From an uncultured Bacteroidota bacterium (GTDB lineage: Bacteria; Bacteroidota; Bacteroidia; JABEUT01), in contig CAIPDV010000062.1 in the NCBI GenBank assembly GCA_903863935.1, positions 1 to 64,000 on the forward strand: DNA of 64,000 nt, written 5' to 3'. Each line of letters begins with the position of its first letter. Within the stretch, counting starts at the first letter, position 1. The notes below the pieces were generated by a model that worked only from the letters and a program-made list of their open reading frames with translations, was not told the origin of the DNA and did no database searches. Shown here piece after piece: positions 8,142-40,544 of this stretch. A program made the position numbers and the translations under genes.

Positions 8142-8365
8142 AAGTTTTGTTTTACACTTTTTTACACTTTTTAAGGTTTAAACATGTGTAATTAAATCAA
8201 TTTAATATATTGAAAATCAATTAATTGCATAATTATTGGATTGCACCTGTTTTAATAGGTGTAAAACAAAAGGATTAAATAATAAGATAATCAGGGTGTT
8301 ATATCGGTTTTACACTGTAATGGGTTATATGGGGTGTAAAACAAAAGGTGTAAAACAAAATAGGA
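8142..8365. repeat. Non-coding element with inverted TTTTGTTTTACAC ends
   Basis: The left end reads TTTTGTTTTACAC followed by a second TTTTTTACAC. The right end has two copies of GTGTAAAACAAAA in tandem, the exact inverse, and an internal copy lies near 8260. The left end plus the GAAAATCAATTA segment recur at 39711-39780. The pattern suggests a miniature mobile element or an array of recombinase/regulator sites. Confidence 0.5.
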
Positions 8366-14154: not shown

Positions 14155-14219
14155 ACAGATAAACTATGAACTATGAACGATAAACTATGAACAATTAATA
14201 ATTGGTAAGTTTTTTCAGG

Positions 14220-31408: not shown

Positions 31409-31684
31409 GTGATGCCTAACTATATTAGAGACAAAAGATCGCCCAAGCCTAAGAATGAACTAGTTTCTAAGGTTATGAGTGCTAATAAAAGTAAGGGAAC
31501 AAAACCTGAACTTTTGTTTAGAAAAGCATTATGGGCTATAGGGCTAAGGGGATATCGTTGTAATTACAAGAAAGTACCAGGTCGGCCTGATGTTGCCTTT
31601 CCTAAAAAGAGGATTGCTATATTTATCAACGGATGCTTTTGGCATAGATGTCCTTACTGTGAACTATCTAGTTGCGGACCTTGA
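31409..31684 (+). pseudogene. vsr mismatch endonuclease, truncated 5' half
   Basis: The first about 85 residues match Vsr, the very-short-patch repair nickase that accompanies cytosine-5 methyltransferases. Seen are MSANKSKGTKPELLFRKALW, the catalytic aspartate in VPGRPDVAF and INGCFWHRCPYC with the conserved histidine. It then breaks after CPYCELS and ends at a stop within a few codons. The remaining third (the FW and RD motifs of the C-terminal part) is absent, so it is inactive. Downstream DNA continues directly into the 3' part of a Sau3AI-type nuclease gene in another frame. Confidence 0.85.
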
Positions 31685-32606
31685 CTATATTTTTAAGATC
31701 ATCAAACTTTGGAAATTTCCACCAACAGACTTAAAAATTATTGAAGATGACTGGCATAAGATAATTACAAAAATAAAAGCCGGCAAAGCACATGAAATAT
31801 CGGAAGGTGATACTTTGTATTTAGGAGCGTGTACTAAAGGCGCAAATAAGTCTTCTTTAAGAAAGCAGCCATTCTCTGCTGAATTGGCAATGCAAAGGGC
31901 ATTCTCTCTTAAGTCAAAATATCTGAACTTCATTATCCAGAAAAGTCTCCCGGCTGAACGAATTGTAAAGAATACTAATGAATATAAAAAGGGAGAATCT
32001 TTTGAAGACCTTGTTCTAAAAAAGTTTGCATCTTATTACGGTTTATCTGAAAAGGAGATCCTTAAAAAGTTAAAATTGCCGGATTCTGTTTCTAAAAGCA
32101 AAATATACATATTAGCTAAAGCGATCTTCGGAATAAAAAAAGATAAAATTGAAGAGTTTGAAAAAGCTGATATAGAAATGAAAACGATTACTCTGGAACA
32201 TTCAGGTTCATTGAAAGAAAGTATGTCTTTCAAACAAATTCAATACAAACAAATTGTTAATGAGAGTTGGGAAGAGTCCTACTGGTTCAATACTTTGACA
32301 AAACGGTTCTTGTTTGTAATATTTCAGAGGGATGATAAAGGTCAGGCAAGATTGAAAAAAGTAATCTTCTGGACCATGCCAGTAAAGGACTTGGATGTAG
32401 CAAACCAATTTTGGCTTGATACTAAAAAGAAAATAGCCGAGAATGATTTCAGCCATTTTATAAGAATATCGGATAATAGGATCTGTCATATACGCCCTAA
32501 GGGAGTTAATAGCAGGGATCTAATGGAAACGCCTGCTGGTACTATGGAAAAGAAAATGTGCTACTGGTTAAATTCTTCATATATAAAAGGCATTATTAAT
32601 CAATAA
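31668..32606 (+). pseudogene. Sau3AI-family restriction endonuclease, 3' remnant
   Basis: About 312 residues are homologous to the C-terminal two thirds of Sau3AI-type GATC endonucleases. Recognisable segments are IIEDDWHKIITKIKAGKAHE, the hallmark LGACTKGANKSSLRKQPFS, AMQRAFSLKS, the second MutH-like domain with LKESMSFKQI and ICHIRPKG, and an end like Sau3AI (SYIKG). The N-terminal MutH-like domain that holds the catalytic D-x(n)-E-x-K residues is missing, and the frame upstream of about 31668 is out-of-frame vsr. The locus is therefore a deletion fusion. No methyltransferase gene remains in the window. Confidence 0.85.
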
Positions 32607-34403: not shown

Positions 34404-34466
34404 TCCCCTAATTAAAAGGTCGGGGATTTACCCCGGCAACTGATAACTGAAAACTGACCACTGATT

Positions 34467-35000
34467 ATGAAATTCTCTGATGATGCGTTAGAACTGATAA
34501 GCCGGATAAAGAAGCGGTATCCCGAAGGCAAGCAGAAGTCGGCATTGCTGCCCGTGCTGCACCTTGCCCAGGCTGAGTTTGGCGGCTGGCTAAGCTCCGA
34601 AACCATGGATTATGTGGCATCGGTATTAAATATTTTACCGGTAGAGGTGTATGAAGTAGCCTCGTTTTACAGCATGTTCAACCTGTCGCCAGTAGGTAAG
34701 TGCGTGATAGAGGTATGCCGTACCGGGCCATGCTGGCTGCTCGGCGCAGAGGACCTTGTTAACCACTTAGAAAAGAAACTGAATATAAAAGTCGGGGAAA
34801 CCACGGCTGACGGCATGTTCACGCTTAAGACCGTTGAATGCCTTGCGGCATGCGGCACAGCACCCATCATACAAGTTGGTGAAACCTACCACGAAAATCT
34901 GAACATTGAAAAGGTGGATGCCATGCTGGATAACTACCGCAAAACCGTGAAAGAACCTATATCGCACTGGAGCAAGAAACATATTACAAAGTCAAATTAG
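34467..35000 (+). CDS. nuoE: NADH-quinone oxidoreductase subunit E
   Basis: A 177-aa subunit of the respiratory complex I dehydrogenase module that binds a [2Fe-2S] cluster (N1a). The four ligands are C84 and C89 (VCRTGPCW) and C125 and C129 (VECLAACGTAP). The N-terminal helical part and thioredoxin-like fold are of normal length. It normally sits next to nuoF; here a four-helix-bundle gene is inserted, and its TAG stop lies inside the left inverted repeat of that insert. Other nuo genes are not in the window. Confidence 0.96.
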   Translation: MKFSDDALELISRIKKRYPEGKQKSALLPVLHLAQAEFGGWLSSETMDYVASVLNILPVEVYEVASFYSMFNLSPVGKCVIEVCRTGPCWLLGAEDLVNHLEKKLNIKVGETTADGMFTLKTVECLAACGTAPIIQVGETYHENLNIEKVDAMLDNYRKTVKEPISHWSKKHITKSN

Positions 35001-35025
35001 GAATTAAAAATTAGGAATTAGGAAT
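34995..35025. repeat. 31-bp inverted repeat, left arm
   Basis: AATTAGGAATTAAAAATTAG plus GAATTAGGAAT; the exact reverse complement lies at 35379-35409. It contains the nuoE stop codon and the first two bases of the next ATG. Confidence 0.9.
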
Positions 35026-35386
35026 GAAGACCGAGAATGTGATACAGGAAAAGAGTTATGCTTTTGCAATCCGTATTGTGAAATTATACCGTTATCTTAC
35101 CGGAGAAAAGAATGAATACGTCTTATCAAAACAAATTCTAAGAAGCGGAACATCAATTGGAGCAAATGTAGAAGAAGGGATTGGAGGACAATCTGAAAAG
35201 GATTTTTTTACTAAGTTAAATATTGCATATAAAGAGGCTCGTGAGACACATTATTGGTTACGGATACTTCGTGATACCAGTTACCTTTCTTCCAAAGAAT
35301 CGAAAGATATTATTGATGATTGTAACGAAATAATGAAAATAATAGGTTCTATTATTAAAACAATGAAAATGAAATTCAATTCCTAA
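35024..35386 (+). CDS. Four-helix bundle protein (S23/IVP type)
   Basis: A 120-aa all-helical protein of the four-helix-bundle family (TIGR02436), first known from open frames in intervening sequences of bacterial 23S rRNA. Signatures are YAFAIRIVKLYRYL, LSKQILRSGTSIGANVEEGI and FFTKLNIAYKEARETHYWLR. It lies exactly between perfect 31-bp inverted repeats: its ATG overlaps the inner end of the left arm and its stop TAA lies in the right arm. The insert separates nuoE from nuoF. Its biochemical function is unknown; the family is implicated in nucleic-acid interaction. Confidence 0.93.
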   Translation: MKTENVIQEKSYAFAIRIVKLYRYLTGEKNEYVLSKQILRSGTSIGANVEEGIGGQSEKDFFTKLNIAYKEARETHYWLRILRDTSYLSSKESKDIIDDCNEIMKIIGSIIKTMKMKFNS

Positions 35387-35409
35387 TTCCTAATTTTTAA
35401 TTCCTAATT
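35379..35409. repeat. 31-bp inverted repeat, right arm
   Basis: A perfect 31/31 reverse complement of 34995-35025. It ends on the base before the nuoF ATG. Confidence 0.9.
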
Positions 35410-36735
35410 ATGAAATTGCTACTAAATAATATAAACGTACCGGGAATTGAGACCTACGATGTGTATCGCGCCAATGGCGGATATGCAAGCGTTGAGAAAG
35501 CACTCAAAATGAAACCCGACGATATTGTGGAAGAAGTTAAGAAGTCGGGGCTGAGAGGCCGTGGTGGAGCTGGTTTCCCGACGGGAATGAAATGGAGCTT
35601 TATTGATAAGAAAACCACTAACCCGCATTACCTTGTCTGCAATGCAGATGAGAGCGAGCCGGGTACTTTCAAAGATCGTTACCTGATGCAGAAACTCCCG
35701 CATCTGTTGATTGAAGGGATGATTGTATCGAGCTTTGCGCTGGATGCGCATGTGTCCTATATTTATATCCGTGGCGAGTTGTTGTATGTGTATCATATCC
35801 TGGAAAAGGCTATAGCAGAGGCTTACAAGGCTGGCTGGCTTGGCAAAAATATTATGGGTACCGGCTACGACCTCGACCTGTATATGCAACCGGGCGGTGG
35901 TGCGTATATCTGTGGCGAAGAAACGGGACTGATTGAATCGCTGGAAGGCAAACGCGGAAACCCGCGCATGAAGCCGCCATTCCCTGCTATACAAGGCTTG
36001 TGGATGTGTCCTACTGTGGTGAACAACGTGGAAACCCTGGCAGCAGTGGTTCCTATCATGAATATGGGTGGGGAAGAATATGCAAAAATCGGAATCGGGA
36101 AAAGCACCGGTACCAAGCTTATCTCCGCCTGCGGACACCTGAACAAGCCCGGTGTGTATGAGATTGAGCTGGGTCTGCCTGTTGAAGAATTTATTTATTC
36201 AGAAGAATATTGCGGTGGTATTAAAAACGGAAAGAAGCTGAAAGCCGTGGTGGCAGGAGGCTCTTCGGTTCCAATACTTCCGGCCGATTTAATTATAACA
36301 ACTGCCAAAGGCGAAAAGCGTTTGATGAGCTACGAATCACTTGCTGATGGCGGCTTTGCGACTGGTACTATGTTGGGCTCCGGTGGCTTTATTGCCATGG
36401 ATGAGACTACCAGCATCGTGAAAAACCTGTATAACTTCACCCGCTTCTATCATCATGAATCATGCGGACAGTGCAGCCCTTGCAGGGAAGGCACCGGATG
36501 GATGGAAAAAGTGCTTCACAAAATTCTGGATGGTCATGGCAAAATGAGCGACATAGATTTACTTTGGGATGTACAAAGCAAAATAGAAGGACGTACCATT
36601 TGTCCGCTGGGTGATGCTGCTGCATGGCCTGTAGCTGCTGCAATTCGCCACTTCCGTAAAGAGTTTGAAGAATACATTCAGAACCCGCAAAGCATAAAGA
36701 ATGTTTCGTATTTAGACGAATTGGTAGAGGCGTAA
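35410..36735 (+). CDS. nuoF: NADH-quinone oxidoreductase subunit F
   Basis: A 441-aa subunit of complex I that binds NADH, FMN and the N3 [4Fe-4S] cluster. The Gly-rich NADH/FMN motif is [14 protein letters not shown] (about 50-63), the FMN site includes [10 protein letters not shown], and the cluster cysteines are in [15 protein letters not shown] with the fourth in [13 protein letters not shown]. Length is normal. It starts directly after the right inverted repeat and ends next to a convergent gene, so nuoG does not follow as usual; the rest of complex I must lie elsewhere. Confidence 0.97.
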
Positions 36736-39555: not shown

Positions 39556-39992
39556 AGTTTTTTTCGAAGCTAAAAGTAAGCATTATAATATGCGGAAAAG
39601 TCTTAAGAAGATTTTATTTTACACATCTTTTAACCAATCAACTGGAATGGAGTGGGAATAGAGACCCCTACCAATGCGGGTTTTAAGGCAATGCCGGACT
39701 TTTGTTTTACACTTTTTTACACTTTTTCTGGTATTTACAGTATGTAAATGGTATGATAATACATCAGAAAATCAATTAGATAAGTGGTCTTGTCCAGAGT
39801 TTTGTTTTACATTAGGTCAAACAAGCCTGTTCCATCTATTTTTCTAAAATCGTGGGTATAGCCTAACTTTTTTGAGGCTAAAATGGGCAAAACTATTTTT
39901 TTAAATCTACCGACTAAAAATTTATAACCTATAAATCAATGTGATGTAAAATATTTTAGTACTATGTATTGCATGGTATTAAAATATTAACA
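39556..39992. repeat. Second copy of the TTTTGTTTTACAC element
   Basis: TTTTGTTTTACACTTTTTTA plus CACTTTTT at 39711-39738 repeats 8142-8170 almost exactly, followed by GAAAATCAATTA and, near 39800, another TTTTGTTTTACA. The right-end inverse copies seen in the first element are not present. No gene is seen in the stretch. Confidence 0.5.
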
Positions 39993-40468: not shown

Positions 40469-40544
40469 CAGTTATAAGTTATGAGTTATAAGTTATTATC
40501 CAAGAGTAATTCGGACATAACTTATAACTCATAACTTATAACTG
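40469..40544. terminator. 28-bp perfect inverted repeat between convergent genes
   Basis: CAGTTATAAGTTATGAGTTA plus TAAGTTAT (40469-40496) is exactly mirrored at 40517-40544, with a 20-nt spacer. It is built from TTATAA/GTTAT units. It lies between the stops of two convergent genes and can act as a bidirectional terminator or an inserted palindromic repeat. Confidence 0.65.

Follow-up and report, generated by a model that had tools for sequence, protein, structure and literature searches.

The window analysed here is a stretch of 64,000 bp from the genome of an uncultured Bacteroidota bacterium (genome G000). In this window nuoE and nuoF are separated by an insert of 415 bp (34995-35409), in which a gene of the 23S rRNA intervening-sequence protein (IVP) family is enclosed by two inverted arrays of a tandem heptamer. 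Neither of the two nuo genes is broken. The features of the junction are as follows (positions in the window).

34467-35000, plus strand: nuoE, 2Fe-2S thioredoxin-like subunit (PF01257), the upstream host gene
34995-35025, no strand: left arm, L-type array, of a type that recurs in the genome
35024-35386, plus strand: IVP / four-helix-bundle gene, 120 aa, matching the profiles PF05635 and TIGR02436
35379-35409, no strand: right arm, R-type array, exact reverse complement of the left arm
35410-36735, plus strand: nuoF, FMN-binding 51-kDa subunit (PF01512), the downstream host gene

The initial annotation of the window had described perfect 31-bp inverted repeats, and the two arms (31 nt each, spaced 353 nt) are indeed 100% complementary. 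From base composition about 4e-11 such arm pairs are expected in 64 kb. The layout that had been given for the junction agreed with the coordinates as well: the nuoE stop at 35000 is supplied by the left arm, the ATG of the insert at 35024 overlaps this arm, the right arm contains the stop codon of the insert (35384-35386), and the first base of nuoF is 35410, directly after the end of this arm at 35409. Each arm is itself a tandem heptamer array (AATTAGG AATTAAA AATTAGG AATTAGG AAT). The N-terminus of NuoF reads MK.. in the window and MSRK.. or MSKK.. in congeners, which makes it 2-3 codons shorter. Since an arm supplies the nuoE stop and nuoF lacks these codons, the insertion appears to have replaced a few bases of the junction. 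An Rfam scan of the window yielded two tRNAs only, placing the insert outside a 23S rRNA gene. The presence of a PF05635 gene bounded by inverted repeats between nuoE and nuoF was confirmed.

The 120 aa protein matched PF05635 (23S_rRNA_IVP, E 2.3e-30), TIGR02436 (four helix bundle protein, E 4.6e-35) and PDB entry 2RLD (E 3.5e-34), so that its assignment to the family encoded by 23S rRNA intervening sequences was correct. The ratio of nonsynonymous to synonymous substitution rates (dN/dS) against relatives was 0.04-0.23 in pairs with unsaturated dS, indicating purifying selection. Residues Q37, R40, S44, N48, E51 and E74 (window numbering) are near-invariant.

The initial annotation had also suggested that the insert may be a mobile unit, and comparison with related genomes supported this. 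In four congeners (G007, G008, G004 and G010) nuoE and nuoF are adjacent and the insert is missing. The closest genome, G005 (95% NuoF identity), carries a gene-less (AACTTTA)n array at this junction, and G015, which belongs to another family, a gene-less heptamer hairpin. For 10 of 11 further elements (six in G000, five in G005) one or more orthologous sites proved to be empty; the eleventh allowed a partial comparison only. At the empty orthologous sites homology resumes just beyond the arms, the insertion boundaries having been placed by separate flank alignments. Further copies were found at unrelated sites in G000 and its relatives, and their homology stops at the arms; the C54 and C113 copies are 83% identical over 424 bp, and the window element and the C45 copy of G007 78% over 416 bp. 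The 31-bp repeat was matched 82 times in this genome. The two conditions named against the initial annotation that could be checked here did not hold: some relatives lack the insert at nuoEF, and there are additional copies. Where IVP proteins of different genomes are similar, so are their heptamer units, even if the sites are not orthologous (p 0.002 by permutation within genomes), which indicates that gene and arms travel together. Judged from these comparisons, the insert is probably a minimal mobile element that was copied to this site recently; it consists of an IVP gene inside inverted arrays of an element-specific heptamer. Elements of this kind are widespread and apparently undescribed so far.

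The IVP copy of this genome that is most like the window element (L002:1501-1915, G000 C81) has a frameshifted gene. Its orthologue is present at the same site in G005 (L048/L304), and L293, L298 and L305 are without the gene. By eye, the nuoE-nuoF junction of G036, another genome of the class (L167:763-1492), holds an apparent nucleotidyltransferase/HepT gene pair, so the junction seems to have been invaded independently by unrelated inserts.

The architecture of the insert is general and not confined to nuoEF. The genome contains eight PF05635 genes (one frameshifted), each lying between inverted heptamer arrays that sit right at its ends; their units are AATTAGG, AATTAGC/T, AGCTAAG, AATGAAG, AACTATG (twice), AGTTATG and AGTTGTC. 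Arms were scored by comparing the upstream flank with the reverse complement of the downstream flank, a score of at least 16 being taken as clear arms. This score was reached by 71 of 102 distinct IVP loci of the class, against 2.8% when flanks were paired between different elements and 3.7% for control open reading frames (ORFs) taken from the same loci. Among the controls with high scores are some that overlap an IVP gene or belong to the GxxExxY family (see below). Among IVP loci from many phyla, gathered with a close three-sequence protein alignment, 52 of 85 had inverted arrays (null 3.2%), and outside Bacteroidetes 35 of 59. Seven of eight loci on cyanobacterial plasmids had inverted heptamer arms by inspection.

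Of 198 arms, 164 fitted best to a period of 7 and 25 to a period of 8. A given element has the same unit in its two arms, and units differ widely between elements. Arms within one element agree better (0.735) than same-side arms of orthologues (0.547; p 0.014, 11 non-independent pairs), which suggests that the arms of one element change in concert. The observed units stop translation in all three frames more often than permuted units do (0.49 versus 0.32), an effect too weak for three-frame termination to be the main reason for a period of 7.

On the cyanobacterial plasmids, four-helix-bundle genes are located between cas6 and cas4 in Anabaena and Pseudanabaena and between cmr2 and cmr3 in Picosynechococcus (L340, L343 and L344); the arrays flanking the Pseudanabaena locus appear direct, not inverted. 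On contig C2 of G019, a stretch of about 6 kb (L067) holds three IVP elements together with one GxxExxY element, suggesting that such insertions cluster.

Arrays also occur without a gene. When AATTAGG-type sites of the genome were inspected (a sample, not an exhaustive set), many consisted of two inverted arrays with a loop of 5-41 nt and the remainder of single arrays. The hairpin arrays keep the outer-to-inner order of the IVP arms. Where the case is clear, an L-type array comes after a stop codon and an R-type array before a start codon. The window contains one such hairpin and three single arrays, all with units of resident IVP elements.

14158-14188, no strand: gene-less array of AACTATG-type units, the unit type of the IVP elements on contigs C54 and C113
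34435-34466, no strand: gene-less R-type array whose AACTGAT-like units run right up to the nuoE ATG; the IVP element on contig C14 has this unit type
40470-40543, no strand: gene-less perfect hairpin of two 27-bp AGTTATR arrays with a 20-nt loop, filling the gap between two convergent genes; unit type of the IVP element on contig C24
63688-63718, no strand: gene-less R-type array of AACTGAY-like units, just before an ATG

In 197 genomes the density of array matches followed the number of IVP genes (Spearman 0.64, or 0.59 with genome size taken into account; p 0.0005 on permutation within families, the comparison being corrected for family and genome size). The median was 0.23 matches per Mb in genomes without IVP and 5.2 per Mb in genomes with IVP. 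As the IVP genes' own arms add 0.48 matches per gene, this relation is not circular. G006, a genome of the same genus that is 99% complete and has no IVP, contained 3 matches, compared to 186 in the genome studied here. The unit types differed accordingly between genomes: G005, where an element with such units is present, had 59 AAAGTNN arrays, G000 had 5 and G006 had 0, and AATTAGG arrays numbered 26 in G000, 1 in G005 and 0 in G006. Judged from these counts, the unit type of the arrays is cognate to the resident IVP elements.

A second protein family was found in the same setting. Genes of the PD-(D/E)XK family GxxExxY (PDDEXK_3, PF13366/TIGR04256) had inverted arrays at 24 of 31 loci (null 5.3%; loci L345-L374 and L067:7075-7464). 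Their units are CACAGAG-, CGCAGAT- or CGCAAAG-like and mostly of period 8-10, and hairpins of GxxExxY-type units without a gene occur at L296 and L320. That each protein has its own type of array favours a protein that recognises its array.

In the mechanism that we propose for the mobile element, the heptamer arrays would serve as its terminal inverted repeats. The IVP protein would recognise the array of its own element, whether in double-stranded, single-stranded or transcribed form, and together with host enzymes may cause copying of the array-bounded sequence into short intergenic gaps. Gene-less copies would be non-autonomous derivatives, comparable to the miniature inverted-repeat transposable elements (MITEs) of transposons and to the REPINs (hairpin-forming doublets of repetitive extragenic palindromic, REP, sequences) of RAYT (REP-associated tyrosine transposase) genes. 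The IVP gene would be transcribed from the host operon, which would account for its near-invariable orientation: of 78 IVP genes between tandem genes, 77 had the orientation of their neighbours, compared with 225 of 267 ordinary genes. This bias fits a dependence on host transcription, and RNA-directed insertion would produce it equally. Like transposons and their MITEs, the elements end in inverted repeats, have copies in unrelated places and are missing from orthologous sites; with REPINs and RAYTs, as with MITEs, they share a gene flanked by repeats that are also dispersed without it as hairpins. RAYT genes carry a Y1 (HUH) transposase, REPINs derive from RAYTs and MITEs from transposons. 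The IVP differs in being without a Y1 (HUH) TnpA-type domain, and its repeats are heptamers in tandem, with many units that are unrelated to each other.

Several observations weigh against a mobile element driven by the IVP. The profile search detected no transposase, recombinase or catalytic domain in the insert, only PF05635 and a bAvd match below its cut-off. This match reflects a four-helix-bundle superfamily common to IVP and the Avd/bAvd proteins of diversity-generating retroelements (PF22296, NF033474); at 22.6 bits (cut-off 40) and 16.6 bits (cut-off 80), IVP scores far under the curated cut-offs and falls outside these families. A target-site duplication was not seen at the identity of about 80% between species, the empty sites being only 70-88% identical, and mobility was deduced from genome comparison. 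About 30% of the IVP loci were without clear arms by the score used. As far as the sequences go, IVP and the gene-less arrays are linked by correlation, and 7 of 42 IVP-less genomes had at least 1 match per Mb, for instance G152 with 9.1 per Mb; loss of IVP genes, or their absence from the assembly, could explain the arrays in such genomes. A further point of this kind is that the IVP gene might be cargo, with the arrays spread by a transposase or reverse transcriptase encoded elsewhere or by template switching at hairpins. The missing catalytic domain is in line with such a passenger role, as is the occurrence of a different family, GxxExxY, between inverted arrays. That the GxxExxY arrays have other units and another period speaks against it, however, since array type goes with the cargo gene, and so do the paucity of arrays in IVP-less genomes and the unit types that follow the resident IVP elements. 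We regard a passenger role as unlikely.

The initial annotation had raised the possibility that the stem allows RNase III to excise the insert from the nuo mRNA. On such a reading the arms would exist to form this stem, and NuoE and NuoF would be made from separate RNAs, in the way that 23S rRNA is fragmented. The RNA of the insert does fold into the entire 31-bp stem (free energy -100 kcal/mol, z -4.2), and there is a close precedent. The intervening sequence (IVS) in the 23S rRNA of Coxiella burnetii, which is excised by RNase III, is 428 nt long with a 28-bp terminal stem, contains an S23p ORF and has GACAGAT tandem heptamers just upstream of this ORF (PMC4990558). It resembles the insert in protein family, in length (428 versus 415 nt), in stem (28 versus 31 bp) and in having heptamers by the ORF. 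The Coxiella IVS lies in helix 45 of the 23S rRNA, however, and its ORF is decaying, whereas the insert lies between protein genes, has an intact and conserved ORF and has dispersed gene-less copies. Read in this way, the insert is not a 23S rRNA IVS by location and is of the same kind by anatomy. Given the full fold of the stem and the cutting of the Coxiella IVS, the nuo mRNA may well be cut. If the arms were under selection as an RNA stem, however, G-U pairs should be favoured among their mismatches in the sense RNA, and no excess was found (147 G-U versus 197 A-C at a score of at least 14; 138 versus 174 at a score of at least 16). The arms do not look as if they were selected as a stem in the sense RNA. 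Gene-less single arrays, moreover, are common and form no long stem of their own. As an explanation of the arms, excision from the mRNA is therefore improbable. For the mobile element we regard RNA processing, since the G-U excess is lacking, as a consequence of the arms and not as their reason; the stem in the transcript would probably be cut by host RNase III as a side effect, not as what maintains the arms.

It is distinctly unlikely that the IVP is a host nucleic-acid-binding regulator with the dispersed arrays as its sites and the arms as autoregulatory sequences. R-type arrays are located directly before start codons, such as the one at 34435-34466 before nuoE, in agreement with a placement also noted by MacGregor (PMC4679880), the number of arrays tracks the number of IVP genes and the protein is under purifying selection. 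A regulon of this type is contradicted by elements that are present or absent at orthologous sites among species of one genus, by several units in one genome and by arms that are co-inherited with the gene at unrelated sites. An ordinary accessory nuo gene, or an error in a metagenome-type genome of 126 contigs, can practically be dismissed, because the gene is absent from nuoEF in congeners and the layout recurs at many loci in many independent genomes, including complete cyanobacterial plasmid records.

The short tandemly repeated repetitive (STRR) sequences of cyanobacteria are further examples of heptamer arrays. TAACTGA arrays, with their placement before start codons, were described in Beggiatoaceae, cyanobacteria and some Bacteroidetes (PMC4679880), and GGGAATC arrays with 70-75 convergent inverted pairs in Xanthomonas, together with arrays in Nostoc (PMC4692102). 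Like the arrays reported here, these are intergenic tandem arrays of 7 bases, often located by start codons and sometimes in inverted pairs. In both papers an S23/IVP gene is unmentioned and the origin of the arrays is left open, whereas here array type and number coincide with IVP. On this likeness, the published TAACTGA, Xanthomonas and Nostoc arrays look like gene-less members of the elements. No link between S23/IVP and dispersed heptamers was found in a literature search in which subscription journals were mostly uncovered, hence this is weak evidence of novelty.

A wider interpretation would make IVP genes the autonomous members of an unrecognised pan-bacterial class of mobile elements, of which the dispersed heptamers of Bacteroidetes, cyanobacteria, Beggiatoaceae and Xanthomonas and the 23S IVS are products, with element-specific array ends that evolve in concert, with a protein in which no transposase domain is recognised and with GxxExxY nucleases as a sister class of longer units. 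We consider the chances of this interpretation to be evenly balanced. Two old puzzles, 23S rRNA intervening sequences and the intergenic heptamers of many phyla, would then have a single origin, and one of the commonest small four helix bundle families would have a testable role. If the IVP moves its own arrays, it would be part of a mobile element without known transposase chemistry. The elements also shape operons, adding stem-loops and altering gene ends at junctions; nuoE-nuoF is one example, and the sites among the cas and the cmr genes of cyanobacteria are others.

Two observations elsewhere in the window concern other sequences. The 27-base TTTGTTTTACACTTTTTTACACTTTTT is a dispersed repeat, present at 8146-8176 and 39701-39730. 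At 31409-32606, an ORF for a Vsr mismatch endonuclease overlaps an ORF with a MutH domain in another frame, possibly a frameshifted or overlapping restriction/repair pair.
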